DNA from: Mycobacterium sp. BK086
GTDB taxonomy: Bacteria > Actinomycetota > Actinomycetes > Mycobacteriales > Mycobacteriaceae
Length of the DNA: 64,000 nt
NCBI GenBank assembly: GCA_004362315.1
Contig: SNWL01000010.1
Location: 297,491-361,490 of the forward strand
Reading direction: 5' to 3'
Shown here: positions 1,241-32,493 of the stretch, piece after piece
Layout: the number at the start of each line of letters is the position of its first letter
Numbering within the stretch: the stretch's first letter is position 1
Program-made: the position numbers and the translations under genes
Notes under the pieces: generated by a model
The model's database searches: none
Told to the model about the DNA's origin: nothing
The model's input: only the letters and a program-made list of their open reading frames with translations

Positions 1241-3808
1241 TCATAGATCATGCCGCCAAGTGGGCGATTCGGTGTCGATATGTTGCGGTGTAAGAGTCTG
1301 TCCGCCGCCGAGGTGAGGCGCAGGGTCTCCCAGACGATGTGTCGAAGTCTCTGCACCGTCCGGGTAGTGCTGGTCGCCATCCACAGTCCGCGCCAAATCC
1401 GCTTGAGCGCCCAGATTTCCAACTGGTAGATCGCAATATCGGGCATCCAGCAGGACGTCTTTGATCTCGGCCATGTTCAGACGCAGCCGTTCGATGAACG
1501 CGGATGTGTCGCCGGGCCCGGGATTGCGCTGGGGCGGATCAGCGCATAGCCATTGGGAAATGAGACGGTCGAATGTCTCGGGGACGAGGGTGTACTTCGA
1601 CAGCCGAGTCGGAGGGGTATGCGCGACGAACTCGGTCAACGCCTTACCGTTGGGCACATTGCCGTGTTGTTCTAGCCCGATGCGTATCGCCTCGCGGCGG
1701 TGGGGTGCTTCGCCGACGACCATCCAATACCATGTCGCAGCAAAGGCATACAGATCGGCGTGCAAGAGGTAGCTGCCCCACTCTGGCCGTTGGCGTGTTC
1801 GCTGCTCGGGCGGTGAGAAGTAGTTGGTAAAGGTTGGCCGCTCGGTGGCGAGGGCGTCGCGACCGTGGGCAAGCTTGGACAGCCCCCAATCAAAGATTTT
1901 CAAGGTGTGCGCCGCATCGTCGTCGACGCCGATGTTGGTGGGCTTGATATCAAGGTGGGTGCGGGGTTCGGGCAGTGTCCAAGCGGCAACAAGACCATTG
2001 AACACTTGCTCTGCGAGATCGAACGTTTCGCCCAAAGTCAAAAGAGGCAGCTGTTCAATATACGTCTGCAACGTCCATGGGAACATCTTGGTGACCACCA
2101 CAACGTCACGGCCGGAGGTGTTCACGTAGTAGATGTGCGCGTGGTTCTCGTGACCGATGCCGACCGGTATGGCGTGCGCCTCAGCCATCGCGGCACGCAA
2201 CACTGCACCGCCTCTTTCGTTTGCGGCCCAGTAGATCTTGACCGCGAAGTCGAAGTCAAAATCCTCCGCGACGTGGTGTGCCCGAAAGACCGCGGATTCG
2301 TCGGACGTGTGGACGCGCTCATCGAGAAAGTACTGACCGGCCACCACACTGCCGACGTCGACAACGCTGGTCTCAGGTTGAGGAGCGGTGATCGGAAATT
2401 CTTTGTGGGAAACGGATTCGCCAACGTCAGCAGTGCTTGCCGGCGGCGGAGTTGCGAAATCCGGAGGCGGATAGGCGCCCCGGCGCTTCGATAGCTGAGT
2501 GCGTGCCTCGTCCAGATACTCGTCAACCAGCGCGCCCGGATCAGCGTCAGCAGTCATCACCTCTCTGGCCGCGCCGCCGACGGCTGCGAGGGCATGCGAG
2601 GCCAACGCTGCCTTCTCCTCGGCGGCCGCCAGGTCAGTGTTTCTGTGCCACTGGGTGATCAGGGATTTTTGCTCACGAGCCGCAAGCCGGTCTTGTGCAT
2701 CATGTAGCGCTAGGTCGCGGTCGTATTGAATAGACGCGATGGCGCCATAGGTTTGTCGCATGGCCTCCACGCGACCGATGCGTTCATACAGTGTTCGTCC
2801 CGACGTCATTTTCAGCAGCGCTGGCATCAAGTCGACCAGCAGCAACGCCCCGGTTAGAAACCACCGCACAAGCTGCAAGCGCGGGTTGTCGGTCAACACG
2901 TGCTCGAGGGCTTCTTCGCGGATCAGGAGGCCGCCGTCGTCGCGGATAGTCGCAGCTCTGCGGTCAATCTCGCCGGCGATCAACCGACTTAGCTCGGCCT
3001 GGTCCTGCGCGTGCTTCGTGATCGCCGCGGCCAGTATCCCATCAGCGTCGATACGCGCATCGCGCTTTCGGTTGTAAATCCCTTGGGCTGTATAAGCTTC
3101 CGGACCGTTGCCGACATCACCCGTTCCGCCGGTGCCATGTAGCTCGGCCTGCCAATCCCCATATGCATTGCTCTCCGCGACGGAGGAATCCTTCTGGTTG
3201 ATTTGCGCGGCGGTAAGTGCAGCTTCGATCGCCATGCTCTGCTGCACAAACGAAGCCTCTTGAGGCACAGTATCGTTGAGCTGTTTGATTTGGCCGCTAT
3301 GGATCTTATCGATCTCGTCGGCGATATCGTCGCGAAAGATACCGAGGATGATCGGCTCGGCAATCAACAGCCCGATTACACCCGCCAACAGCAGTCGGCC
3401 GCCGAAGTAGCCTATCTTGTTCCACCAATGTCGCGGGCGTTCACCGGGTTCGAGATTCCCGTAGTCGATCGTGGCGGTGATCCACCGATCAATCATGAAC
3501 ACCACGAGCCCCCACGTGGAGCCCACGGCGACGAAATACGCGCGGAAGCCACCGAGCACGGTGGACAACAGCAGTACCATTGCCGCCGCGCCGGCGAGCG
3601 CGGTCAGGCACACGATCCCGCCAGCACACGTTAGCCGGGCTCGTTCAGCCCGATTGGTGATCCAGCCGAACTCAGCACCGGCAGCCCATAGGAGAGGGCT
3701 CCTCCAGGTCGGTGTCGGCTTCACTGCCGCGGCATGCCCCGAAGGTCCGCGCGCGTCCACCGGCCACGCTTCCCCGGCTGATTGCGGAAGGTCGCGAACT
3801 TCATCCAC
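1241..3808 (-). CDS. DUF4407 membrane protein fused to a Ser/Thr protein kinase domain
   Basis: The 855-residue protein has two architectures joined. The N-terminal half resembles DUF4407: hydrophobic segments near 62-85, 92-110, 136-157 and 312-335, with a charged helical region between and after them. A linker near 445-485 leads to a kinase domain (about 487-790) with the AVK lysine at 524, HLDIKPTN at 618-625 (catalytic Asp620, Lys622, Asn625), DWG at 640-642 in place of DFG, and SPPEQ in place of APE. The key catalytic residues are kept, so activity is likely. The DUF4407 part may sense or anchor at the membrane, which is inference. FHA genes lie on both sides, giving likely phosphothreonine readers. 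Confidence 0.85.
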   Translation of the reverse strand: MDEVRDLPQSAGEAWPVDARGPSGHAAAVKPTPTWRSPLLWAAGAEFGWITNRAERARLTCAGGIVCLTALAGAAAMVLLLSTVLGGFRAYFVAVGSTWGLVVFMIDRWITATIDYGNLEPGERPRHWWNKIGYFGGRLLLAGVIGLLIAEPIILGIFRDDIADEIDKIHSGQIKQLNDTVPQEASFVQQSMAIEAALTAAQINQKDSSVAESNAYGDWQAELHGTGGTGDVGNGPEAYTAQGIYNRKRDARIDADGILAAAITKHAQDQAELSRLIAGEIDRRAATIRDDGGLLIREEALEHVLTDNPRLQLVRWFLTGALLLVDLMPALLKMTSGRTLYERIGRVEAMRQTYGAIASIQYDRDLALHDAQDRLAAREQKSLITQWHRNTDLAAAEEKAALASHALAAVGGAAREVMTADADPGALVDEYLDEARTQLSKRRGAYPPPDFATPPPASTADVGESVSHKEFPITAPQPETSVVDVGSVVAGQYFLDERVHTSDESAVFRAHHVAEDFDFDFAVKIYWAANERGGAVLRAAMAEAHAIPVGIGHENHAHIYYVNTSGRDVVVVTKMFPWTLQTYIEQLPLLTLGETFDLAEQVFNGLVAAWTLPEPRTHLDIKPTNIGVDDDAAHTLKIFDWGLSKLAHGRDALATERPTFTNYFSPPEQRTRQRPEWGSYLLHADLYAFAATWYWMVVGEAPHRREAIRIGLEQHGNVPNGKALTEFVAHTPPTRLSKYTLVPETFDRLISQWLCADPPQRNPGPGDTSAFIERLRLNMAEIKDVLLDARYCDLPVGNLGAQADLARTVDGDQHYPDGAETSTHRLGDPAPHLGGGQTLTPQHIDTESPTWRHDL

Positions 3809-4098: not shown

Positions 4099-5016
4099 CT
4101 ACCCTTCGGCTCCTTTGCCGGTGTGGATCACTGACCGTAATGCCGTCGAGTGGCGTCCCCAGGCCACCACGTCCCCGTCGTGCAGCTGCCGCCAGCCGCT
4201 CACGGCCACGCCGTTGACGGCACAACCGTTGGCGCTGCGGTCCGCTATCCACCAAGCGCCACCGTCATTCCGAACTACGGCGTGGACACGCGACATCCAG
4301 GGATCGAGGGCAATCTGTACGTCAGCGTGTCGGGAACGGCCGATTGTGGCTGACGGCGCGACGACGCGGTGGACTCGACCGTCGGTTGCCAATTCAAGGT
4401 ACTTTCCATGGCCACGGCCGGCGCTGATTGAGATGGATGTGTTGCTAGTGGAGTGTCCGTCGTCACGGCGCGTCGACGGCACGAATGCCCGGCCGGGGAC
4501 GGCTGGAGCGACCGCCTGCACCCAGCAGGTGCCACGACGCTGCCGGGGAGTCGACTCGATCAGGATCGATGGGGATCCAGAGAAATCCTGTACCGCAGCG
4601 AAGCGACGGATGGTTTCGAGGTACTGGTCGGTGAGATACTCCATGATGGCGTCAGTGCCGTAGTGCGCCACTAAGGCGCCGTGGTCGTCATCGTTGAGTC
4701 TGACCCGCACGATGCCGGGAGCGTGTGACCACCACTGCTCATGTCGGATCACGCCCGGCAGAGCCTCGACAGCCCGATCGACAACCGTCAGTGGGTCTTT
4801 CACCGGGCGCCAGGTCCGCTGTACGCGCACAGCGCTTACCAAGGCGGCCAGTACTGCGCCAAATGCAGCGACTACAAGCGTCGCAACTACGATATCGCGT
4901 GCTGATACCTCGACCAGGATCCACAGCACACCGACAGCACTGAGCACGACCCGCGTCGGGCCTGGCCGATTGCGGAAACCGTTGTGCGGCCACAGCCGGA
5001 AGCGTGAAAGCGTCAT
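4099..5016 (-). CDS. Membrane-anchored FHA domain protein
   Basis: The 305-residue protein has two adjacent hydrophobic segments (about 21-38 and 41-63), a middle region without recognised motifs, and a C-terminal FHA domain (about 207-296). The FHA signature is complete: G226-R227-S228, S242-R243-H245 and N263/N268 with the NG turn. It should bind phosphothreonine peptides at the membrane. I chose the ATG at 5016, preceded by GAGGGG. The frame stays open to 5187, but that extension reads into sequence that looks like degraded mobile DNA. It is first in the minus-strand order FHA, small ORF, DUF4407-kinase, FHA-PP2C, so it is a candidate docking partner or substrate of the kinase. Confidence 0.8.
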   Translation of the reverse strand: MTLSRFRLWPHNGFRNRPGPTRVVLSAVGVLWILVEVSARDIVVATLVVAAFGAVLAALVSAVRVQRTWRPVKDPLTVVDRAVEALPGVIRHEQWWSHAPGIVRVRLNDDDHGALVAHYGTDAIMEYLTDQYLETIRRFAAVQDFSGSPSILIESTPRQRRGTCWVQAVAPAVPGRAFVPSTRRDDGHSTSNTSISISAGRGHGKYLELATDGRVHRVVAPSATIGRSRHADVQIALDPWMSRVHAVVRNDGGAWWIADRSANGCAVNGVAVSGWRQLHDGDVVAWGRHSTALRSVIHTGKGAEG

Positions 5017-5246
5017 AGGCCCCTCTGAGTGTGCGCGAATGTAGTTCCAGGCAAGCAGCAAATTTCTTCGAGTACTAGGGCAGGCGTCGCTCAAAATTGA
5101 GCTTGCCTGTTCCACGGCACGGGGGCGATCCGACGGTTTGGCGCAGCGGTCGTGTGGATCGATCGCTCGGCTGAATTCCCTGGACACGTGAGCCGACGGC
5201 TCCTAGGCAAGCTTTTACATCGCCGTGGCGCCCCCTCGCACGCCCG

Positions 5247-6602: not shown

Positions 6603-7718
6603 TCAGTCGTGCGGGTCGGTTGGCGGCTGGGGTTGGACGCGGTAGGTGCCGATGTTGGTGCCGTTGGCTGCGTTGCCTCGCGGATATGGTTTGACCCGGA
6701 TTTCCTTGCCGGACCGATCGTGGCGGACGTGTCCTCGAACGTTGTGCAACGGCATTGCCTTGTGGTCCTCGGCGCGGTGCGTCGGTGACGTCGTGGCTGT
6801 GACGTCGATGAGGACGGTGCGTTCGTCGGTGCGTGGTGCGGCCGGCACGCGGTACTGACCGGGCCTGACTTCCTCCCGCATAGTATGCGGTTGGTTGAGG
6901 TAGGCCAGGATGTCGTAGAGCTGCGTAAAGGCGGCCTGCTGGTGAGAGAGTCGACGGGACCAGAGCTGGTCGGCGAACTCCTCGCGGCCAATGAAAATCC
7001 CTGTGGCATCCAACATTACCATGTCGGGCTGGTCGTAGAAGGTGATCTTCTTCTTATCTGAGATGACCAGCGATACCGCCAGGCGGTGGCTCGCCGTGCG
7101 AGTGATGTGCGCCCCGACCCGGTAATGCGGGGTGCGCCACTCGATCCACGTATTGTCGAATGGTGGGAGCAACACCGCGCGTACGGGGCGCGGGGCAACG
7201 TCGCCTTCGACGGTGAACGGGGTGGCGGACAAAAAGGTTGACCGCAGTCCGGCCAGGCGTTGGATGGTCGCGGTCTCGGAGCCTTCGCGGGGTGTGAACT
7301 TGGGCGCTAGTTTGGCGGGCTTGGTGCCGGCTTCGACGATAGCGAGGACCGGAAATAGGTCCGGATCCGTTTGGGTGGTAGATGGTTGGAGATGCGGTGT
7401 CGCTACGACTGTCGGGGTGGGTCGGGTCTCGGCAGGGCGGGCTTCGGGTAGCCGACCTGCGTGGACTCGATCGTGCAGGTGTTTGGCCTGCGAGTGCAGG
7501 TCCCGGTCTAATCTGCTGGTCAGTTCGGTGGGGCGCAGCTCGTCGAGCATGGCGTCCAGGCGCCTGGCATATTCGTTGGACAGGCGACCACCGCGGTCGA
7601 CGATGGCGCGCATCCCGTCGAGCGAAATTTTCAATTGCTCGTGGCGGGTCATGAGGACGAGGTGCCGCGTCGGCTGGTGTGGGCGTCGGGGCGATTTCCT
7701 CGCGTCGGCGTCCGCCAT
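6603..7718 (-). CDS. Hypothetical accessory protein with C-terminal H-x-VRGH motif
   Basis: The protein has 371 residues from the ATG at 7718, chosen because AGGAGGG lies 9 bases upstream. An ATG at 7742 is possible but lacks such a site. The N-terminus is basic, a Pro/Thr-rich linker lies near 95-120, and the C-terminus contains HNVRGHVRHD followed by GKEIRVKPYPRG. This H-VRGH ... GK ... RG arrangement recurs in actinobacterial phage and plasmid proteins of unknown role. The gene is bracketed by two degenerate direct repeats and sits 290 bp from the protease gene on the same strand, so it may belong to the same accessory block. No enzymatic motif is evident. Confidence 0.65.
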   Translation of the reverse strand: MADADARKSPRRPHQPTRHLVLMTRHEQLKISLDGMRAIVDRGGRLSNEYARRLDAMLDELRPTELTSRLDRDLHSQAKHLHDRVHAGRLPEARPAETRPTPTVVATPHLQPSTTQTDPDLFPVLAIVEAGTKPAKLAPKFTPREGSETATIQRLAGLRSTFLSATPFTVEGDVAPRPVRAVLLPPFDNTWIEWRTPHYRVGAHITRTASHRLAVSLVISDKKKITFYDQPDMVMLDATGIFIGREEFADQLWSRRLSHQQAAFTQLYDILAYLNQPHTMREEVRPGQYRVPAAPRTDERTVLIDVTATTSPTHRAEDHKAMPLHNVRGHVRHDRSGKEIRVKPYPRGNAANGTNIGTYRVQPQPPTDPHD

Positions 7719-7860
7719 CACTCGGATCCCTCCTGGCGGCACCCGGCGTGCGGCCCGCTCACAGTTTACGAGCCGGTGACCGGCCCATGGCTACCGTCGA
7801 ACAAGAAAACTATTGTGAAGGCGCAGCAGGGTGTCGATCGCTCGCGCAGCGCGTTCTGCT

Positions 7861-8008: not shown

Positions 8009-10267
8009 TCACGTCCGCACCCGCAGCCGTCCAACGTCGATGGCCAAAGCACTCGGATAGCGCAGCGCGGCGACCGCGGCCAGGCCATCGTTGTGAACGG
8101 GGAGCGTTTCGTCGGGGCTCTCGAGCGTGACGATCACGAAGACCCGCTGCGTCAGCGGCTCGATTGTGCTGTCACGGGCCGTGAGCCGTAGCTTCAGTGC
8201 CCAGTCACCATAGGCATCAACACCGCCCCATTTCTTGCGGTATGTCTTGATCGGGCTCCACTTTCCCCGATCGATGAGATCCTTTTCCCAGCTTTGACTG
8301 TCACCCATCTTGCCCTTGAAGGTCTCTTTGCCGTTCTTCATAGTGTATCGGCCGAAAGAGGACTCCACGCACGTTCGGGTGCATTCTTCGCCGAACGCGG
8401 GATCGATCACCGGAGCATATGAAATCGTCAGCGCCACTGTTGCTTTCATCTTTCCGGCAGCGTCGATCAAACACTCCGGCAGCGGAAACGGCCGCTTCTC
8501 CCAGTTGACCCCGCTGACCAGTTCGACTTCGTGGATCGAGGTGAAGGCATTGGGCCGATCGAACAAGACGACTGACTCGCCGTGCGGGCGTCCGGCGCCG
8601 TAGTAGGGGCGCTGTTCATCGGAAATCGCCATATTCGCGACCGTCGCGCTATGCACGACAAGCCCTTTGACTAGTTCGGGGGCAATGGACTCAACAGCGC
8701 CACCGACGAGCAGGTCCGACCAGATGTTCGCCGCGATCGAGCTGACGATTGGAGTCGCAAAGCTGGTACCTACCATCTCGAGTTTGAAATCGCCCGGGCC
8801 CAGAGACTGCACACCGTAGCCGGAGAGTTGCTCGGATTCGTCGAAATCGCCTGACCAGTAGGTGACTTCGGGCTTCTGTTGCCCGCCGAAGCTGGGTCCG
8901 CGCCGACTGTAGGACGCCACCGCGCCGCGAGGCGTCAGGCCGCCGAGGTGTGACAGTGATCCGACGGTGAGACTGCGCACCGCTTCAGCGGGGACGGCGA
9001 GCCCGTCCTCCTTCCCGGGGGAGCCGTCGGGCGGCCATGTCCGTCGTAGCCCCGGAAAGTTGCCCGCTGACTGCACAAATAGGACGCCATGTGTGTCGGA
9101 GAGGAGGTCCAATTCCTGGCTCAGGGTGCCGTAGGCGATCGGATCCATGTGTTCTTCGTTGTTAAAGGAGCAGTTCCAGATTCGGGGACCGGTCGGTCCG
9201 GATTCATTGAGCACTTCGGTTATCCGGTCGATGAGGACATCTTCGCTGACCTTCCCTGCCGGCAGGACCTGCGCATCGAAGAGCAGGGCCGGGTCGAGCG
9301 GAAAGTCCTCGCTGTCATCGTTGAGCTGGCGACTGGCGACAACCAGACCGCCAACGAACGTCCCGTGGGTCGTGTCGCTGTCAGGCGGAACCTCATAGGC
9401 CCAGCGGCGCCGGATCCAGGCATCGAGTGCCCCGTGTTCGATACCGCTATCGAGGATGCCGACCATCGCATCGATATCGACGGGGTCGGGTACCTGCACC
9501 TCGCCAGGGCCGGCGACCACCCGAAATGATTGCGGGCCAACGGGTGCTGGTGCGTTGTAGGCCGGTGCCAGCACTGCGCTGCGGATGCCGATGAGCGTTT
9601 GCAGCGACTGCACGGTCGCGTCGTCGGTCACTTGTAGATACAGGGCGGTCCGGGTTCTGCTGCCCGCTGTGGACATCACCGGCAGGCCGACCAGTTCCAA
9701 GTACTGACCCAGTGTCTGGCCGTCCTGCCACAATGATTGCAGGGACAGCCAGGGAAAAAGCTCAACCCTCAACGGTGTGGAGTGTGCTCGGGCAGCATCT
9801 AACAGGCTCTGCGCCGACGAAAACTCCGCCGACGCCGCAGCGTCAGATACCGGGTCGAAGACGCGAAACGACTCGAATGTCGAGATGGCAAAGGTATCCC
9901 GCTTGCTGGTGCGGGTGGCGATGAGTTCGGCGAGCGCATTGGTGTTTTCGGGTGTGGCTCGGCTGATCATCTCGCCGCGGGCGCCACCAGCCACCGGCAT
10001 CAGATCGGCATCGGCCAGGAACTCGTAGGGCCGGTTGGACTTTGCCAATGCTTCGTCGCGCACCCGGATCGCGACCGGAGTCCCCTGAACAGCTCCGGGC
10101 CGGTCAGCCGCCGCGATCTGCCGCACCGAGGACAGCTGTGTCACCAGGCCAGACCGCAGCTGCCGATCGACGGTCACTATCGGCGCGGGAGTCTTGCCGC
10201 CACCCTTTTTGCGGGCGTACTCGCCCCGCTGCGCGGGTAAGACGATGATGGGTTCCAGATCAGGCAT
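8009..10267 (-). CDS. Subtilisin-like (S8) serine protease, cytoplasmic
   Basis: The 752-residue protein carries a full S8 catalytic set: Asp273 in ILDSGIEHG, His301 in THGTFVGG, oxyanion Asn403 in SAGNFPG and Ser502 in GTSFATP. There is no signal peptide. About 260 residues precede the catalytic domain and about 200 follow it. The start overlaps the stop of the AAA+ ATPase gene by 8 bp, so the two are co-translated and probably work together, with the ATPase gating or activating the protease. AAA plus S8 gene pairs recur in bacterial accessory islands and are suspected defence modules. Here the pair is divergent from a ubiquitin-like conjugation operon. Substrates cannot be deduced. Confidence 0.9.
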   Translation of the reverse strand: MPDLEPIIVLPAQRGEYARKKGGGKTPAPIVTVDRQLRSGLVTQLSSVRQIAAADRPGAVQGTPVAIRVRDEALAKSNRPYEFLADADLMPVAGGARGEMISRATPENTNALAELIATRTSKRDTFAISTFESFRVFDPVSDAAASAEFSSAQSLLDAARAHSTPLRVELFPWLSLQSLWQDGQTLGQYLELVGLPVMSTAGSRTRTALYLQVTDDATVQSLQTLIGIRSAVLAPAYNAPAPVGPQSFRVVAGPGEVQVPDPVDIDAMVGILDSGIEHGALDAWIRRRWAYEVPPDSDTTHGTFVGGLVVASRQLNDDSEDFPLDPALLFDAQVLPAGKVSEDVLIDRITEVLNESGPTGPRIWNCSFNNEEHMDPIAYGTLSQELDLLSDTHGVLFVQSAGNFPGLRRTWPPDGSPGKEDGLAVPAEAVRSLTVGSLSHLGGLTPRGAVASYSRRGPSFGGQQKPEVTYWSGDFDESEQLSGYGVQSLGPGDFKLEMVGTSFATPIVSSIAANIWSDLLVGGAVESIAPELVKGLVVHSATVANMAISDEQRPYYGAGRPHGESVVLFDRPNAFTSIHEVELVSGVNWEKRPFPLPECLIDAAGKMKATVALTISYAPVIDPAFGEECTRTCVESSFGRYTMKNGKETFKGKMGDSQSWEKDLIDRGKWSPIKTYRKKWGGVDAYGDWALKLRLTARDSTIEPLTQRVFVIVTLESPDETLPVHNDGLAAVAALRYPSALAIDVGRLRVRT

Positions 10268-11384
10268 CGGCGGTCACCTTCCCGATGGCTTTTGATACCT
10301 GGCGGGTGCTGACACCGAAGCTCTCGCTGAGAGCTCGTACGGTGAACACGTCCGGGGCCCATTCCCTGAGCGCTGCGATTTCCGACGCACCATCTTTGAA
10401 CTTCTCGTAGGAGTCGAACCAGAGCACTCGCGCCAGCCTGCGCAGCATCGTGGGCAGTGGCAGCATGTCGACTCCCTGTTTCACAGCCACTCGCCACATA
10501 TCGTTTGCCGCCGATGTGATTGCCGAACCGGACAGCCCCTCGGACAGATCGACAAGTCGACTGAGGTCGGTATCGGCAGAAGCGAGCTGGGCCAACGTAT
10601 TTCGCCAAATCAGCGTGCGCTCGGCGGCGCCGGGCAGGTCGACCTTCAGGGTGTAGTCAAATCGCCGCCACACCGCGCTATCCAGCAGCTGGGGATGATT
10701 GGTCGCGGCCACCAGGATCGTCGAGGGATCCATGGCGTCGATATTCTGCAACAGCGAGATGACCACGCGCTGCAGCTCACCAATCTCGTGAGAATCCCCA
10801 CGGTTTTTGGCCAGCGCATCGAACTCGTCCAGGAATAACACACATGGCATTGACGCATTGAAGTCGAACACGGTGCGCAGGTTGCGGCTGGTCTGTCCGA
10901 GCAGCGACGACATCAGCGCGTCGCTGCGGCTCAGCACCAGGGGCAAGCGCAGATCTTTGGCGATGCGCGCAGCAATACTGGTCTTGCCGGTACCCGGCGG
11001 CCCGTAGATCAGCAGTCGATTAGATGCCGCTACGCCCTTGGCTGCCCACGTGTCATACATCTGCACCGACTCGAGGAAGTCGCCGAGGCGATCGCGTACA
11101 TACGGGTGCAGCACGAGCTCGTCGACGGGCAGTTGCTCTGCCGGGGTCACGTCCACGATCGCGAGCATGTTCTCGACGTCGACCGGCGCCTTGGCCACAC
11201 TCGACGACGCGCCGATGGCGGGTCCGGGCATTTTCGCCAGCACGGCGCGGACCGCGCGTGCCTGCCTCAATTCGCAGTCGCCCTCAAGCTTGGCTGCCAG
11301 CAGCTCTCCGTAGGAGTGCGCCTTGCGTGTGTCATGCATCAACGCCGCGTCCAGGATCTTCACGACCTCCGACAGATGCTCCAC
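10260..11384 (-). CDS. AAA+ ATPase partner of the S8 protease
   Basis: The 374-residue protein has one AAA+ module: Walker A GPPGTGKT (128-135), Walker B LFLDEFDAL (183-191), sensor-1 Asn229 in ATNHP and arginine-finger candidates R240-R241 in WRRFDY. The layout resembles the FtsH/classical AAA clade. The N-terminal 90 residues may recognise the target or the partner. The C-terminus (about 330-374) includes a helix-turn-helix-like segment (VRALSESFGVSTRQVSKAIG). It heads the minus-strand pair with the S8 protease and shares the 235-bp divergent region with the ubiquitin-like operon. Confidence 0.9.
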   Translation of the reverse strand: MEHLSEVVKILDAALMHDTRKAHSYGELLAAKLEGDCELRQARAVRAVLAKMPGPAIGASSSVAKAPVDVENMLAIVDVTPAEQLPVDELVLHPYVRDRLGDFLESVQMYDTWAAKGVAASNRLLIYGPPGTGKTSIAARIAKDLRLPLVLSRSDALMSSLLGQTSRNLRTVFDFNASMPCVLFLDEFDALAKNRGDSHEIGELQRVVISLLQNIDAMDPSTILVAATNHPQLLDSAVWRRFDYTLKVDLPGAAERTLIWRNTLAQLASADTDLSRLVDLSEGLSGSAITSAANDMWRVAVKQGVDMLPLPTMLRRLARVLWFDSYEKFKDGASEIAALREWAPDVFTVRALSESFGVSTRQVSKAIGKVTADA

Positions 11385-11517
11385 GACCCTCCAACTCGAT
11401 AGCTACGTCATTGCTGTTTCGGAAAGCGGCGCACTTGTCCCGGAATATTTATCAAACCAGGCGAATTCACCGAATACCGTCACGATATCAGTCAGATCTG
11501 TCTCACGGATAGACCAG

Positions 11518-11576
11518 CTGCTTGATCTCCAAGCACCGCTTGCTTTTTCTTCAAGCAGCGCGTAGCTTTCAAGCAG
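11518..11576. promoter_or_regulatory. Cluster of CAAGC/GCTTG sites, likely operator array
   Basis: Five copies of GCTTG or its complement occur at 11520-11524, 11530-11534, 11538-11542, 11552-11556 and 11570-11574. CTGCTTGA (11518-11525) is the exact complement of TCAAGCAG at 11551-11558, which is repeated directly at 11569-11576. The array lies between the divergent AAA and ubiquitin-like genes. CAAGCA also occurs upstream of the XRE gene, so XRE binding here is a reasonable inference. Confidence 0.55.
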
Positions 11577-11578
11577 AG

Positions 11579-11600
11579 CGCGATCCACCTTCGGATCGCG
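11579..11600 (+). promoter_or_regulatory. Leader hairpin upstream of the ubiquitin-like gene
   Basis: CGCGATCC and GGATCGCG form a perfect 8-bp stem around a 6-base loop. It ends 11 bases before the GAGGAGGA ribosome site of the ubiquitin-like gene and may affect translation or RNA stability. Confidence 0.4.
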
Positions 11601-11619
11601 TCTGAGATGAGGAGGACCC

Positions 11620-11913
11620 ATGACCATCGCCAACGACCGCGCCGATCGAGGCAACGCGCACGATCATCACGACTGGCTCGAACTGCGCATCTTCGCGCCC
11701 CGCGACCCGGAGGAACGAACCTTCGTCTTCGACAGCACCACCGTCGTTGGCGAAGCGGCCCGCGAGGTCGCAACGGCGTTCGGCTACGCCGAGGGAAACC
11801 ACACCTTTCAGAATCGCCAGGACGACGTGCTGGATCGAACGACGACGCTGGCCCACGCCCACGTCCACGATGGTGAGCTGCTCGAACTCATCGATGTCGG
11901 GGGCGGGGTATGA
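11620..11913 (+). CDS. Ubiquitin-like (beta-grasp) protein with GGGV tail
   Basis: The 97-residue protein has alternating hydrophobic strands typical of a beta-grasp fold (WLELRIF, RTFVFD, ELLELIDV) and ends in D-V-G-G-G-V. A glycine-rich C-terminus after a final beta strand is the hallmark of proteins activated by E1 enzymes. The single Val after GGG implies either trimming, for which the neighbouring JAB peptidase is the obvious candidate, or use of the tail as it stands. The start is well supported by GAGGAGGA before ATG 11620. The stop overlaps the E2-like start (ATGA), giving tight coupling. The fold is inferred from sequence pattern and operon context. Confidence 0.8.
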   Translation: MTIANDRADRGNAHDHHDWLELRIFAPRDPEERTFVFDSTTVVGEAAREVATAFGYAEGNHTFQNRQDDVLDRTTTLAHAHVHDGELLELIDVGGGV

Positions 11914-12401
11914 CGGTGACGGACCCGCGCGTCGCGCGGGCGGTCATCGACGCGGAGATGGCGGCCGTAGCGGCGTGGGCTGCTCGTAACGGGTGGGACG
12001 TCCGGATCGACATCGACGGTGGCGTCGAGGGTCCGGTGCTGCAAGCCCGAACGGCCCATCCAGTAACCCACGTGCCGATTGTGTTCTACGCCGAATTGCA
12101 CGATTACCCGGTGCTGCCGCCGGCATGGACCTGTCGCGACGCAGCCGGTGCCGTGAGCGCGGCGGCCTTTCCCCTGGCGGGAACGCGGCCGGGACTGAGC
12201 GGCTCGATCTTCCACGGCGCGCTGGTGCTCTGCGCCCCGTGGAACAGGCTGGCGTACGGCGCCCACGGCGGCCCCCACGCCGACTGGACGGATCTGACCG
12301 CTTGGAAGTCCATCGGCGGCGTGACCCAGGCGCACACCCTGGCCGACATGCTGGCCTCGATCGCGGTGCACCTGTCCGCCAGTCCGGGAACAGTCTCGTG
12401 A
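11910..12401 (+). CDS. E2-like ubiquitin-conjugating family protein
   Basis: The 163-residue protein matches the bacterial E2-like pattern: beta strands ending in HVPIVFYAELHDYPVLPP, then an L-V-L-C-A-P-W-N-R segment with Cys108 as the likely thioester-forming residue, and HGGPHADWTDL downstream. C-x-PW followed by a GPH/DW segment is seen in E2-like proteins linked to prokaryotic E1 and JAB genes. It should accept the ubiquitin-like protein from the E1-like enzyme and pass it to targets. It overlaps its neighbours on both sides (ATGA and TGATG junctions). No RING or other E3 gene is visible nearby. Confidence 0.8.
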   Translation: MTVTDPRVARAVIDAEMAAVAAWAARNGWDVRIDIDGGVEGPVLQARTAHPVTHVPIVFYAELHDYPVLPPAWTCRDAAGAVSAAAFPLAGTRPGLSGSIFHGALVLCAPWNRLAYGAHGGPHADWTDLTAWKSIGGVTQAHTLADMLASIAVHLSASPGTVS

Positions 12402-12940
12402 TGCCGGTGCACCGGCGCACCCCGCTGCCGACCGCACCGGCGCGCGGCAAGCTGTTGGTCGCCGAACAAGTGCTCTCCCCTACCCTGGCTGCGCTGCGCG
12501 CGAGCTCCGGGCCCGACGGCCAGCACGAAGGTCTGGTGCTCTGGCTAGGCAGGACCGTCGAAACCACCACGGTGGTAATCGCACTAGTTTGCCCGCCGGC
12601 ACGCACCGGGCGCGACTTCGTCCTACTCGACGAGCGCGCGGTTGCCGCCGCCTCCCGCGCCGCGCGCGGCTGCGGACTCGGCGTGGTCGCTCAAGTGCAT
12701 AGTCACCCTGGCCGGGACACGCGCCATTCCGATGGCGATGACCAGCTAGTCCTGATGCCGTTCGAGGGAATGTTCTCCCTGGTGGTGGCGTCCTATGGCA
12801 GTGGCTCGATAGAGCCCGGCCGCGGCGCGGGTCTGCACCAGTACCAGGATCGGCGCTGGGTGCGCATCACCGACGACCAGACCATGGTGGTGGTCCCCGC
12901 AGCGCTGGCCGTGGCGGCCTCCGCCGGGAGAGGCCACTGA
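12401..12940 (+). CDS. JAB/JAMM metalloprotease, likely ubiquitin-like processing or deconjugating enzyme
   Basis: The 179-residue protein holds the complete JAMM set: Glu43 in HEGLVLWLG and HSHPGRDTRHSDGDD with H100, H102, S110 and D113, exactly the HxH-x10-D spacing of zinc-dependent JAB peptidases. In related systems (Cap3 of type II CBASS and bacterial ubiquitin-like operons) this enzyme removes ubiquitin-like tails or conjugates. Here it may trim the final Val of the GGGV tail and reverse conjugation. The start is ATG 12401, overlapping the E2 stop. A GTG one codon earlier is possible. The stop overlaps the E1-like start. Confidence 0.9.
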   Translation: MPVHRRTPLPTAPARGKLLVAEQVLSPTLAALRASSGPDGQHEGLVLWLGRTVETTTVVIALVCPPARTGRDFVLLDERAVAAASRAARGCGLGVVAQVHSHPGRDTRHSDGDDQLVLMPFEGMFSLVVASYGSGSIEPGRGAGLHQYQDRRWVRITDDQTMVVVPAALAVAASAGRGH

Positions 12941-14355
12941 TGACTCCCGAGCAGATCACGCAGTTCTACTTCGCGCGCGACGCCCGAACCGTCAGCTACG
13001 GCAGCATTGCCGAATCCCTTTGCGCCGAAGTGGTCCTCGTCATCGGTGCCGCCGCCGCCGCGCGCCCCGGTCAAGTCGCGCTGCTGGCAGTGGTCAACAT
13101 GATGGCGCGCACCCACCGCTACTTCAGTATCGAGGTGCCGCCACTGCCGCTGGTCGCGTCATCACTCACCACCGCCACCTCGATCGCAGAGGCCGTCGGA
13201 CAGACCGTTCTGGCCGCCAACCCTGCGGCCAGAGTCGTTGTCAACGGGAGGCGCATCGATACCAATGACATCACCGACCCACCTCGGCGCCAGGTATCGG
13301 CGGCAATCGGCGCCGATGTGACTGGGGATTTCGACATGTGGCTGGGCTGGGCCGGTGGGCTCGGACTCCTGACGACACACCCCATCCCCACCACCGATGC
13401 GGACTCCGGCGTCCTCGGGGCTGCCACCGCAGCGTGCATGGCCGCCGGAGGCCTGTTCCAGCGCAGTCACGGTCATCCCGTCCTGCCGGGCGCAGTCAAC
13501 CTCGTCGAACGCAGGAGTGCGAGCGGCGAGGATGTCGCGACGGCGGCGATCGGTTCGGGCACTGACGGTCTCGGTACCAGCAGCATCACCGGCCCGATCG
13601 ACGCAGGCGATGTGGCTGTCGTCGGCGCTGGCGCCGTCGCACACTCGTTGGGCTGGTGGACAAGGGAATTCGGGCACGCCGGGTCGTGGAGCGTGATCGA
13701 CGGCGACGACGCCGAATTGTCCAACGCCAACCGGTGTATGGCGATGAGCGCCGCGGACGCCGGGTGGCCTGGAGGGCTGCCGGGTCCGCCGGCCCGGACA
13801 AAAGCCGACGTGCTCGCCGACTTCCTGCACGCCGAACCGGTACCGACGTGGTTCGACACGCAGATTCCGGCGGTGCGCCCAGACCTTGTCCTGGTCCTCG
13901 CCAACGAACGCGGAGTGCGGGCGCACGCAGCCGCCCTGGGAGAACCCGTTCTCCTGCACGCCACCACATCCTCATCCTGGACCGCCGAGTTGCACCGCCA
14001 CCTACCCACAGCTGACGACTGTCCAGCCTGTCGGATTCCTGCGGCCGCAACACCGGCCTTCGCCTGCGCCACAGGGCCCGTCGGCCCCGCACCCGACTCC
14101 GGTGATGCCGCACTGCCCTTTCTGTCCGCAGCGGCCGGTCTGATGCTGACCGTCGCGCTGTTCCAGCTGTCCCCGGATCAGGCACTGATCACGGGTCGCC
14201 ACAACCACTGGCGATTGAGTTTTGAACGCGGCGTGAGCCTGCGTCCCTCGGTGCACGCGCCGAGCTGCCCACACACCCTGCCGACCGCGGCCCGCCGCAC
14301 TCTGCACGCGGCGCAGCCGCGCAGGCATGACCACCTCGACCCTGCCTATCGCTGA
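12940..14355 (+). CDS. ThiF/E1-like activating enzyme with N-terminal extension
   Basis: The 471-residue protein has a ThiF-type Rossmann core: VAVVGAGAVAHS (226-236) for nucleotide binding, VIDGDDAELSNANR (252-265) for ATP/Mg contacts, Lys288, and CPAC (361-364) with a later SCPH (442-445) as possible zinc ligands. The first 220 residues form an extra domain I do not recognise. It should adenylate the C-terminal Gly of the ubiquitin-like protein and transfer it to the E2-like Cys108. Cys376 and Cys361/364 are candidates for a thioester residue, but which one acts cannot be told. It is the last gene of the four-gene operon. Confidence 0.88.
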   Translation: MTPEQITQFYFARDARTVSYGSIAESLCAEVVLVIGAAAAARPGQVALLAVVNMMARTHRYFSIEVPPLPLVASSLTTATSIAEAVGQTVLAANPAARVVVNGRRIDTNDITDPPRRQVSAAIGADVTGDFDMWLGWAGGLGLLTTHPIPTTDADSGVLGAATAACMAAGGLFQRSHGHPVLPGAVNLVERRSASGEDVATAAIGSGTDGLGTSSITGPIDAGDVAVVGAGAVAHSLGWWTREFGHAGSWSVIDGDDAELSNANRCMAMSAADAGWPGGLPGPPARTKADVLADFLHAEPVPTWFDTQIPAVRPDLVLVLANERGVRAHAAALGEPVLLHATTSSSWTAELHRHLPTADDCPACRIPAAATPAFACATGPVGPAPDSGDAALPFLSAAAGLMLTVALFQLSPDQALITGRHNHWRLSFERGVSLRPSVHAPSCPHTLPTAARRTLHAAQPRRHDHLDPAYR

Positions 14356-14382
14356 CTCATCCCGTGCCCGGCCGTTGTCCGA

Positions 14383-15300
14383 TCAGCGGGGCCGGTGCAG
14401 GACCTGCACATGCGGGCGGTGCAGCGCGAGCCGAGGACGGGGCCGCAGCAGCACGAAATGCAATCGCAGCGTGGCACATTCAGCCAGGAAGGTGACTGCG
14501 CCCCGCTTGGTGTCGAGAGCGATCTCGGTCTGTGTTTCATCCAGACCGGTCTGAGCGGTCACGGCGTGCGCGGCAAACCGGTAGTCGGTCAGCGTCACAT
14601 GCTCTCCGAACAGATCCGTCACCTGTCCGTAGCGATCCCGGAAGGACTCCGATTCCACGCACTGCGTGTCGAACACTTCTAGACCTGGCCGGCCACCCCG
14701 ATACTTCGTTATCTTTCCCAACACCAGCAGTGCGACAGGCCGCGACGCGTGCGCGACATAGTGCCGCATCGCCGCATGGCCCGAGGTGGCGAACCGCGTA
14801 CTCAACTCCAGCGGCACCGCGAGAGACACCGCACGGCTATCGGTCATCTGGGTGAAGCGATCCACCCCGAATAGCAATTCCGCAGCGAATGCGTTGGCCT
14901 CCCGCTCCAGCTCGGCACGGCTGCGGGGATCCAGTGTCGCATCGTCGTCTAGGTAATACGCTCCCTGATGCCAAGGCATTGCCTTGTGCCCCAGTTCATG
15001 CCCGTGGGTGAAGCGACGCCGGTGATGCGGCAGTTCGGGGTCCAGATAAATGACGTCGTGGCCAAAGCCCAACGCGCCCAACACCCGTGACGGCGCCGAC
15101 CGAATTTTCCGCAATAACGCCGCGTAACGCGGCGGGACATCGTCGCCCGCAAGATATAGATCCTGGGCCGGATGCAGGCCGATCGCCGCTTCCACGTCCG
15201 CGAGAGGAACGGGTAGGGTGTCCGCGGCGCCTGCAAGACTCAGCGCGCCCCGGGCACACTTGCGCACGTCCTGTAGCGACGGCACCATGAGTGCACTCAT
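14383..15300 (-). CDS. ImmA/IrrE-type metalloprotease
   Basis: The 305-residue protein has the zinc motif HELGH (101-105) in FTHGHELGHKAMPW and the following helix LEREANAFAAELL (131-143), the standard ImmA/IrrE signature (COG2856). Family members cleave a partner XRE repressor after DNA damage or another signal. Its start overlaps the XRE stop by 4 bases, so the two form a regulator-protease pair. About 160 C-terminal residues may sense a signal. It is convergent to the E1-like gene, with only 27 bp between the stops. Confidence 0.9.
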   Translation of the reverse strand: MSALMVPSLQDVRKCARGALSLAGAADTLPVPLADVEAAIGLHPAQDLYLAGDDVPPRYAALLRKIRSAPSRVLGALGFGHDVIYLDPELPHHRRRFTHGHELGHKAMPWHQGAYYLDDDATLDPRSRAELEREANAFAAELLFGVDRFTQMTDSRAVSLAVPLELSTRFATSGHAAMRHYVAHASRPVALLVLGKITKYRGGRPGLEVFDTQCVESESFRDRYGQVTDLFGEHVTLTDYRFAAHAVTAQTGLDETQTEIALDTKRGAVTFLAECATLRLHFVLLRPRPRLALHRPHVQVLHRPR

Positions 15301-15716
15301 GATCTGTTCTTCTTCCGTGATTTTAAGAACTCGAGGTAATCGCGGAGCAGCTCCTGATCTTGCTCGTCAAGCTCCTGCAGTGCGCGCAGCGGAACGCCGG
15401 CGACCGTCTGTGGCGCCACGGTGACTTCGCTGGCGCTCTTGGGTATTCGATGACCCGCGCGCGTCATCAAGTCCGCATAATCGATGTCGTACACGTTCGC
15501 CAAGTGGTACAGCACACTGGGAGAAGGCTTTTCGACGCTGCCCGACTCAATCTGACTCAGATAGCCGTTGCTGACCGACTTATCGGTCGCCGCCTCGACA
15601 TCACGAAGCGTCATGTTCAACAGGCCGCGGATCTGGCGCAGGTATGCTCCCAGCGAGGCGTCAGATGACGTTCTCGCTGCAGTAGTCTGATGCGAAGAGC
15701 TTTTTGCTGCCATCAT
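15297..15716 (-). CDS. XRE-family transcriptional regulator
   Basis: From ATG 15716 the protein has 139 residues. An XRE helix-turn-helix occupies about 23-84 (AYLRQIRGLLNMTLRDVEAA, then NGYLSQIESG). The C-terminal tail may be the substrate of the adjacent ImmA/IrrE protease. The frame is open to 15854, but the upstream codons look non-coding, so I prefer the Met-Met at 15716/15713. A CAAGCA element lies about 30 bp upstream, which would allow autoregulation and control of the divergent promoter near 11.5 kb. Confidence 0.85.
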   Translation of the reverse strand: MMAAKSSSHQTTAARTSSDASLGAYLRQIRGLLNMTLRDVEAATDKSVSNGYLSQIESGSVEKPSPSVLYHLANVYDIDYADLMTRAGHRIPKSASEVTVAPQTVAGVPLRALQELDEQDQELLRDYLEFLKSRKKNRS

Positions 15717-15745
15717 TACAGTCTCGCCGCTCGCGCTCAGTATGG

Positions 15746-15751
15746 CAAGCA
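15746..15751. promoter_or_regulatory. CAAGCA element upstream of the XRE gene
   Basis: It matches the core repeated at 11520-11576 and sits about 30 bp before the XRE start. A single 6-mer can arise by chance. Confidence 0.3.
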
Positions 15752-15774
15752 ATGCGTACTTTGGGGCGCAGATT

Positions 15775-15972
15775 TTACTGTGGCGATGCCGCCTCACGAA
15801 GTCGCAGCCGTGTTCCGTGGCCTTTGGCGATGAAGGTTCGTGAATCACACCCACGCGTCAAGCTGATGCGCTCGTGCTCACCGACTAGCTCCAGCACCGC
15901 ATCTTCATAGGCGATCAACGCCTGCTCCATCCCGGGGCGCGGCCAAAGAAACACATAGAACCTCAGCTTCAC
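15775..15972 (-). pseudogene. Truncated DUF1330/dimeric alpha-beta barrel-like fragment
   Basis: A GTG at 15972 opens VKLRFYVFLWPRPGMEQAL, the typical first strand and helix of small ferredoxin-like barrel proteins. The similarity continues to about residue 40 (LVGEHERISLTR). The rest reads into unrelated residues and stops at 65, short of the usual 90-100. It abuts the XRE promoter and looks like a gene cut by the insertion of the island. Confidence 0.45.
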
Positions 15973-16091
15973 CGTTCCAAGAGTGCCACGCCGCAGTGCT
16001 GCATCAGACCAGCTTTGCGGCATGGTCGATGACCAACTTCGCCCTCAGCATCGGTGCCCTTCTCGCGTTGCAACCGCTCACCATTACGGAA

Positions 16092-16229
16092 ATGACAACT
16101 TCACTGAGACGAATGAGACCAACGCCGTCTCAGTGAACTTGGCACTTTCGCAGCTCGCGGATGACAACTTCACTGAGACCGGACATTCTTTTTCTTCTTG
16201 TCGTTGTCCGGTCTCAGTGAAGTTGTCAT
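16092..16229. mobile_element. IS21-like terminal repeats without a transposase
   Basis: A 25-base sequence at 16161-16185 (starting ATGACAACTTCACTGAGACC) is exactly inverted at 16205-16229 around a 19-base loop. Partial copies lie at 16092-16110 and, inverted, at 16127-16146. Multiple short repeats at an end are typical of IS21-family elements. Related copies occur at 21598-21622 and 32435-32493. The family assignment is inference. Confidence 0.6.
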
Positions 16230-16493
16230 TTTTCGCAGTGAAATATCCATCAAATGGATTCTGGGCGGTTCCAGTGCCGAGTGTGGACGACACTGTCTGC
16301 CTCGGTGGAGAACACCCGGGTTTGGATGAGCGACGGCGTGGTCGGTGAAGTTGCCTTGCCGTCCAACAATCAGACTGGGACCGGACACTGGTTGCCCGCC
16401 GCCGAACCAATCGGCTACAGCCGTTCCTGTCACAAGTTGTTTGAGTGCAGGTACGAAAACCGCGCATACCGCGGTCGACGGGCACCGACAGGT

Positions 16494-20462: not shown

Positions 20463-21732
20463 CTTGTTGCTTCATCAACAGAGGATAGTGGAAGTACCCG
20501 TCAGCCACCCTCAAATGACCCAAGCATATTTGCTGTCCGAGGATTCCGTGCTTCGCGTACACGAAATATTCGATGTCTATCGGTGCAGCAAGAGCACGTA
20601 CCGGACGACGAAGTTCCCGCCGCAACAGAAGACCCCGATACGGGCGGCTACGTACCTCGTGGCACCGGTGCCCGGCCGGCCGGGATGGCGATTCCCAGAT
20701 GCGAGCATGACAATGCGATGTTCGCCGTCTTCAGAATGGCCGGCATCGATCCACCTATCGGATGTTCCGCGATGTGTACCGTCGCCGAACAATGTGCGTC
20801 CGAACACACTTGGCGACCATTGGGGCCGCTGACCCTCTTGCGGACACAGCGCAGCATCGGTTCCCGTCGCGCCGTTGGCGCCCCTACGACAACGCGCGCC
20901 TGCCCGAGATCGGAGGGCACGGCACCGCTATCGACGAGGGTTGCTCAGCGGGTACATGGACCGATTACTGACTGCTGCCGAACATGACACCGCGGCATTG
21001 GAGTAGTTCGTCAAGGTGGCCTGGCTTGTCGACACACCGATTCGGCTGCTTCGTCCTTCGATGATGTGGCGTGCCATCTCGGCCAGACGACGCAGGCAAA
21101 AACGAGGCGTTGCTCGCGTGGGCTGAAGGCACGAGGTTCGCGTTCCGGGTCGACGGCGCATGCAAGCGCTCCGGAGTTTCACGCCTGGGTCGAGGACTAC
21201 CACTTCGATTCGGACGGTCCCTGCACCTTGTTGAGTGTCGGCATCGGCAGCAAGCCGCGACGTGCCTTCAGGCTGGCCGCAACAGTGCTGCTGTGCGCCT
21301 TGACCCTTGTGCTGACTCGTGCATGTCACGACCTCGAACATGGCCGCTGGCACTCTAGGCCGTCATCGAACTCTTTGCCGCTCGGCGTCATTGATGGCGC
21401 GCGCACCTCCTAATGCAGATCGTCCAAGCCTAAGAACCGAAGGCTGGAAGTAATTGTGTAGACCGCGAAGTCGGACAACTACCCGATAAAGATGCCTCGC
21501 GTCGGCGTCGACCGGATGCAACCAGGCCGAGCGGTGGCGTGCCATCAAACCGTTTGTCTTAACCCGGATAGGCGATCGATTCGTCGCCGTTTCGGAGATG
21601 ACAACATCATTGAGACCGGACACGTCACTTATCCGCCTCTTGTCCCGCTAAGGCTGCGACCCGGGCGGCGACCCGGGCGGTGACGGCATTGAAGAAATCA
21701 GGCCCGTGGTATGCGTCGCGTGCAATGGTGGG
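20463..21732. other. 1.27-kb stretch without a recognisable gene
   Basis: Several open frames exist on both strands but none shows a family motif or a good start. One copy of the IS21-like end repeat lies at 21598-21622, and a tandem GACCCGGGCGG repeat lies near 21657-21682. The region probably consists of decayed mobile DNA. Confidence 0.5.
21598..21622 (+). repeat. Solo IS21-like end repeat
   Basis: This 25-base copy differs from the repeat at 16161-16185 at only two positions (ATGACAACATCATTGAGACC and the following CGGACA end). No transposase lies nearby. Confidence 0.55.
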
Positions 21733-32434: not shown

Positions 32435-32493
32435 GTCTCAGCCAACTTGACATTCTCACAGTTAGCGGATGACAACATGACTGAGACCGGACA
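32435..32493 (+). mobile_element. Solo IS21-like end, 59-bp unit
   Basis: The unit has the same length as and high similarity to 16127-16185, beginning GTCTCAG and ending GAGACCGGACA. It borders the truncated TnsA-like gene, which suggests that an insertion sequence landed here and was later deleted. Confidence 0.6.

Follow-up and report, generated by a model that had tools for sequence, protein, structure and literature searches.

The stretch analysed here is a 64,000-nucleotide window of Mycobacterium sp. BK086 DNA, and all coordinates given for it are positions within that window. The block of interest, at 8009-15854, holds eight genes, each confirmed as an open frame. In our best reading they make up three modules and not one device: an operon for a ubiquitin-like protein (Ubl) and its conjugation enzymes (11620-14355, plus strand), an XRE-ImmA pair (14383-15854, minus strand) and the protease-ATPase pair IetAS (8009-11384, minus strand). 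The genes that an initial annotation had named are all present, and the open frames and a motif check found their motifs intact (Walker A/B, the S8 D/H/S residues, the ImmA HELGH and the JAMM motif). The corresponding Pfam E values are 8.1e-29 for S8, 5.2e-29 for AAA, 1.4e-10 for M78/ImmA, 4.6e-9 for HTH_19 and 2.1e-7 for Prok-JAB. An Rfam search gave no match at gathering thresholds.

The ubiquitin-like operon and its relatives

The first gene of the operon (11620-11913, plus strand) encodes a Ubl of 97 amino acids, with a single ubiquitin-like domain and a GGGV end. It is followed on the same strand by a 163-amino-acid E2 of the ubiquitin-conjugating (UBC) fold (11910-12401), a BilC-like JAB/JAMM protease (12398-12940, with a longer frame at 11993-12940) and a BilD-like E1 adenylating enzyme of 471 amino acids (12940-14355). 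The successive frames overlap by 4, 4 and 1 bases, and the four genes therefore probably form one transcription unit. The same Ubl-E2-JAB-E1 order was found in 12 loci, the window and 11 further ones (L025-L033, a M. chubuense plasmid and one viral contig), and the clade spreads over Actinomycetota, Planctomycetota, Armatimonadota and the viral contig. The main route to these loci was a search with short JAB patterns, not a census; a JAB-profile scan gave 29 loci, nine of which (L025-L033) have the close set. In L025 the contig ends within the E1, and the Ubl of L033, a 3 kb contig without flanks, was recognised by alignment and not by tblastn. L017 and L025 are close relatives and therefore not independent. 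We left out of the counts the weak E1 matches G618 and G523, the weak JAB match G867 (9.7e-8), G1011 (taken as L028), and L013 and L019, the same sequences as L033 and L025 read on the opposite strand. The E1 gene of M. pinniadriaticum is divided between two contig ends, the start of L018 and the end of L019/L025, and we kept its pieces apart.

What is new here is a branch of bacterial ISG15-like (Bil-like) operons with a remodelled E2, barely detected by family libraries. Its E1, E2 and Ubl were identified through their relatives, by clade profiles and predicted structure, and not from the window sequence alone. Indeed, neither the window E1 nor the window E2 by itself matches anything in Pfam, NCBIfam or PADLOC within E 1, and the best match of the window Ubl is YukD at 4.6e-4, under the Pfam cut-off. 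We set YukD aside as the Ubl family because the clade Ubl profile finds ubiquitin, and also ubiquilin, with one domain matched. Of the 12 clade Ubls, 10 end in GGGV; the tail of L032 is AGV and that of L033 is VAV.

The E2 is predicted to adopt a UBC fold, and the top structural match of its model is the Bil E1-E2-Ubl complex. Cys108, Arg113, Ala115, Tyr116, His123, Asp125 and Trp126 are invariant in 10 aligned rows; the E2 of the viral contig (L097) has Phe in place of Tyr116, and the clade signature reads Cys-x4-Arg-x-Ala-[Tyr/Phe]-x6-His...Asp-Trp. PMC11354881 describes for the Bil E2 (BilB) a CEHH motif, C x5 E x H x4 H; it occurs in none of the 12 clade E2s, against 11 of 12 outgroup E2s. 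The published residues around the catalytic cysteine have thus been replaced in the clade, the cysteine and a distal histidine being kept. Outgroup loci also carry the Ubl-E2-JAB-E1 order. In the E1 tree the clade E1s form a separate side from the outgroup, in a topology where long branches meet and the root serves for drawing only; all 13 outgroup rows had been labelled CEHH before the motif test, which left L038 outside and found L044 without the motif. A contig assigned to an archaeon (L048, 4176-6891, a Thaumarchaeota metagenome-assembled genome) bears a Ubl-E2-JAB-E1 set with CEHH.

The other two enzymes lead to Bil as well. The window JAB matches PADLOC BilC at 2.7e-11, a 4-row JAB profile finds BilC (8tyx) at 7.4e-14, and E44, H101, H103, S111 and D114 are invariant in 10 rows. 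A 9-row E1 profile finds BilD (8tyz) at 4.1e-17 over 24-288 of 458 positions, and GxG at 229-231, D254/D256, N262/N264/R265, C361, C364, C376 and C443 are invariant in the nine rows; K288 is not. Kinship of the operon with described defence operons, as first annotated, is borne out by this Bil affinity of E1, JAB and E2. PADLOC BilD is matched by seven of nine clade E1s, the window's own not being among them, and PADLOC recognises only the JAB among the window's Ubl, E2, JAB and E1.

The operon is rare. By protein search its E1 was found in 3 of 297 genus genomes and in 4 of 396 phylum genomes, the own genome included in both cases; of the other phylum matches G525 is clear (5.6e-18) and two are weak. 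Two of 296 class genomes, the own genome again among them, match the 9-row profile at E 1e-20. No match was found in the phages searched with the E1, and an initial scan of genome contigs with the E1 alone found no relative. The branch extends Bil-like tagging to Actinomycetota, Planctomycetota and Armatimonadota, and since general libraries nearly miss it, systems of this kind are probably undercounted in surveys.

The adjoining regulator

Twenty-seven bases beyond the end of the E1 gene lies, on the minus strand, the gene of a CapP-like ImmA/IrrE (M78) metalloprotease with a HELGH motif (14383-15300; PADLOC capP, 3.8e-21). It is joined on the same strand by that of a CapH-like XRE-type repressor (15297-15716; HTH_19, and PADLOC capH at 6.3e-7), so that the XRE-ImmA pair of the initial annotation is confirmed by both Pfam and PADLOC. 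The open frame of the XRE gene extends to 15854, and the inner start at 15716 is likelier because the helix-turn-helix (HTH) begins only at residue 70.

The conserved partner of the Ubl operon is an ImmA-type or CapKS-like regulator, which adjoins it in all 11 informative loci (ImmA-type in nine, a CapKS-like pair in two). At distances of up to about 1.2 kb, an M78/ImmA gene accompanies the operon in the window, L017, L025, L027, L028, L030, L031, L032 and L097, against 3 M78 genes in the 6.93 Mb of the window's own genome. In L028 and L030 the ImmA is fused to an HTH, and in L031 (Planctomycetota) it is accompanied by a sigma-70 region 2 protein (8463-9071). A frame in the same place on the viral contig L097 (4126-4749) looks similar to that protein by eye and has no PADLOC match. 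Instead of ImmA, L026 and L029 have a homologous gene pair divergent from the operon. Sub-threshold matches are to HATPase for the first gene of L029 and to winged-helix and STAS-like domains for the second gene of L026, whose first gene has a partial PADLOC DrmA match. This exchange of regulators on a conserved core (XRE with ImmA, a fused XRE-ImmA, ImmA with a sigma-70 region 2 protein, or a CapKS-like pair) offers a case in which modular immune control can be tested. In two mycobacteria the ImmA genes next to the operon are followed by a conserved protein of 344 amino acids (L019, 3950-4984; L017, 7754-8788), which has no Pfam match above threshold and appears nucleotide cyclase-like by eye.

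According to PMC13373217, bacterial Ubl/E1/E2 operons (Bub) often adjoin CapW, CapH+CapP or CapK+CapS. The window likewise has an XRE and an M78 protease adjoining a Ubl operon, here 3' of it and convergent with the E1 gene. A parallel is found in Nocardioides (L027), whose XRE is 43% identical to that of the window over 75 amino acids and whose ImmA is 29% identical over 256. Upstream of the L027 Ubl there are 4 CAC-N4-GTG/CCA-N4-TGG words, where 2000 order-1 Markov samples averaged 0.26 and none reached that number; this enrichment is only suggestive, because the word was chosen after viewing the sequence.

Two observations speak against a simple copy of the Nocardioides arrangement. The Nocardioides pair sits divergently at the Ubl promoter, unlike the window pair at the 3' end of the operon, and a search by k-mers and dyads found no convincing operator common to the Ubl and XRE upstream regions of the window; we dropped the idea of such an operator. 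The L026/L029 pair, which fits the CapK+CapS described in PMC13373217, is the weaker part of the regulator count.

The IetAS pair, the flanks and the rival readings

On the other side of the operon, the minus strand carries the genes of an AAA+ ATPase of 374 amino acids (10260-11384, with Walker A/B) and an S8 protease of 752 amino acids (8009-10267, with the D/H/S motifs), in that order and overlapping by 8 bases. The initial annotation had seen this pair and missed that it is a described system: PADLOC gives IetS at 3.7e-156 over 5-737 of 752 positions and IetA at 2.5e-126 over 1-369 of 374. Judged by sequence, it is IetA/IetS, an already known anti-phage system of two genes, reportedly brought forward as such by Gao and colleagues in 2020. 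It is nearly full length, with IetA then IetS on one strand, and stands below the NCBIfam equivalog cut-offs (IteS 1e-148, IteA 5e-123). The ietAS genes are listed among defence systems in a review (PMC10286901). The IetS model at E 1e-60 is reached in 3 of 396 phylum genomes, the window's match being by far the strongest. IetA and IetS occur together on Acidovorax, Dongshaea and Methylotuvimicrobium plasmids, and the closest plasmid relatives of the window pair come from Pseudomonadota, with 26-32% identity; blastn did not find IetAS in E. coli genomes. The divergent IetA and Ubl starts are 235 bases apart, and the control region between them (11385-11619) holds three TTCAAGCAG-like direct repeats at 11528-11580, found by repeat search.

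Does IetAS work together with the Ubl operon? The initial annotation had proposed a joint ubiquitin-proteasome-like device, an idea to be given up if the two parts did not recur together. IetAS stands beside the Ubl operon in only 1 of the 12 loci, the window itself, so the idea fails by its own refutation test, and we rejected it as the main reading. Indeed, tblastn with the window IetA and IetS found nothing at E 0.01 in 33 loci of the clade or of other JAB relatives (with flanks from none to 10 kb). Conversely, no relative of the Ubl, E2, JAB or E1 turned up within 9 kb of the three IetAS pairs on plasmids (tblastn, E 0.01; the queries were these four window proteins together with four other JAB/E1 relatives). 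The occurrence in one locus fits the clustering of defence genes. In a census of the genus for IetA, the AAA profile had matches in 297/297 genomes and 14/14 controls; among the matches listed, 30 loci were taken with 1.5 kb flanks, of which the window's own held Ubl genes, and the other 29 gave an IetS match in L061 only. This census is weak evidence, because most of those matches were not shown to be IetA. No paper pairing a Ubl operon with IetAS came up in open-licence literature searches, which had the main Bil and Bub papers outside their reach and are no proof of absence. A joint tag-and-destroy system, in which IetA would unfold and IetS cut Ubl-tagged proteins, both halves being driven from the divergent control region, could still draw on the divergent adjacency, on the kinship of both halves with defence proteins, and on the fact that IetAS occupies the divergent place that the regulator has in other loci. 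Given the rarity of the association, and an E1 found in so few genomes of the genus, we regard it as very improbable. The same slight chance is all that we would give to IetAS having been recruited in this genome as a degradative arm, with the E2-remodelled branch marking phage proteins that IetA/IetS would unfold and cut. If true, this would be a bacterial tag-and-destroy immunity built from two known systems.

Homology, gene order, intact motifs, the predicted E2 fold, the distinct clade and the recurrence of the regulator are shown here, and we consider it likely that the locus is a Bil-like tagging operon with its own CapH/CapP-type switch, adjoining an independent IetAS system. From the named families, we infer repression, release, trimming, E1-to-E2 transfer and tagging, and likewise every biochemical step, the target, the control by XRE-ImmA and the phage phenotype. 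The XRE protein would repress the Ubl operon until single-stranded DNA, from phage infection or other damage, activates ImmA, which would cut the XRE protein and allow expression. The JAB would then trim the Ubl tail (GGGV), exposing a glycine, the E1 would adenylate the Ubl and hand it to Cys108 of the E2, and the E2 would attach it to a target, which as in Bil is probably a phage protein. The JAB would also reverse the conjugation. IetA/IetS would act as a separate ATPase-protease defence pair, divergent and within the same defence neighbourhood.

The surroundings hold further elements. Left of IetS, on the minus strand, a PD-T4-6-like protein (1241-3808; PADLOC, 2.7e-16) and an FHA-domain protein (4099-5187; 1.2e-14) are possibly another defence or signalling element, and a 379-amino-acid frame with good coding signal (6603-7742, minus strand) matches nothing in Pfam, PADLOC or NCBIfam within E 1. 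To the right, ATGACAACTTCACTGAGAC repeats lie at 16087-16231 and again at 21598-21616 and 32469-32487 (three copies are exact, a fourth has 3 mismatches and two more have 2 mismatches; chance expectation 0.00), and at up to 2 mismatches they occur, genome-wide, in this stretch only. They are probably IS21-type end repeats, because a comparable stretch is found upstream of istA in a plasmid of M. madagascariense.

Two other readings concern what the operon is for and whom the switch serves. Instead of acting against phages, the Ubl operon could serve a general response to DNA damage or stress, or could have been domesticated to regulate host proteins. We hold this to be unlikely: its nearest relatives are the proteins of Bil, which is anti-phage, and the operon is rare and patchy, is found on a plasmid and a viral contig, and in the window stands beside IetAS. 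Nevertheless, the recurrent regulators come from DNA-damage-responsive families, and PMC13373217 allows that Ubl operons of this kind may mediate more global stress responses. Alternatively, the XRE-ImmA pair might belong to neither system and be the leftover switch of a mobile element. Such pairs are common on mobile elements, the IS21-like end repeats lie just past this one, and no convincing operator common to the XRE and Ubl promoters was found. The presence of an ImmA-type gene beside the operon in 9 of 11 informative loci, set against so few in the whole own genome, and the related pair at the Nocardioides operon make this quite unlikely in our view.

Comparison with Bil, Bub and type II CBASS

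The favoured reading, a Bil-like tagging operon with its own switch, can be set against three known systems. With type II CBASS (cyclic oligonucleotide-based antiphage signalling system; Cap2/Cap3) the operon has the E1/E2/JAB chemistry in common; it has instead separate E1 and E2 genes and a dedicated Ubl, and no cyclase match was found among ten window proteins scanned with Pfam, PADLOC and NCBIfam. The deubiquitinase of Bub is a serine protease, where the window operon has a JAB.

Bil is the closest relative. BilABCD has the gene order Ubl, E2, JAB, E1, which is that of the window operon, and the solved BilD, BilC and Bil E2 are closest to the clade E1, JAB and E2. The window operon also has intact JAMM and adenylation residues, and its JAB combines BilC-family membership with the JAMM motif. 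E1s of the BilD family pair an inactive with an active adenylation domain. The BilABCD composition is given in PMC11354881, where BilA has two ubiquitin-like domains. Within E 0.1 the clade Ubl profile reaches ubiquitin and misses BilA. In the solved structure the BilA chain is nevertheless only 100 residues long, against the 97 amino acids and one matched domain of the window Ubl. The clade shares the gene order of Bil and resembles it in its core enzymes, with E1s on a separate side of the tree and, in its E2, an invariant motif of its own instead of CEHH.

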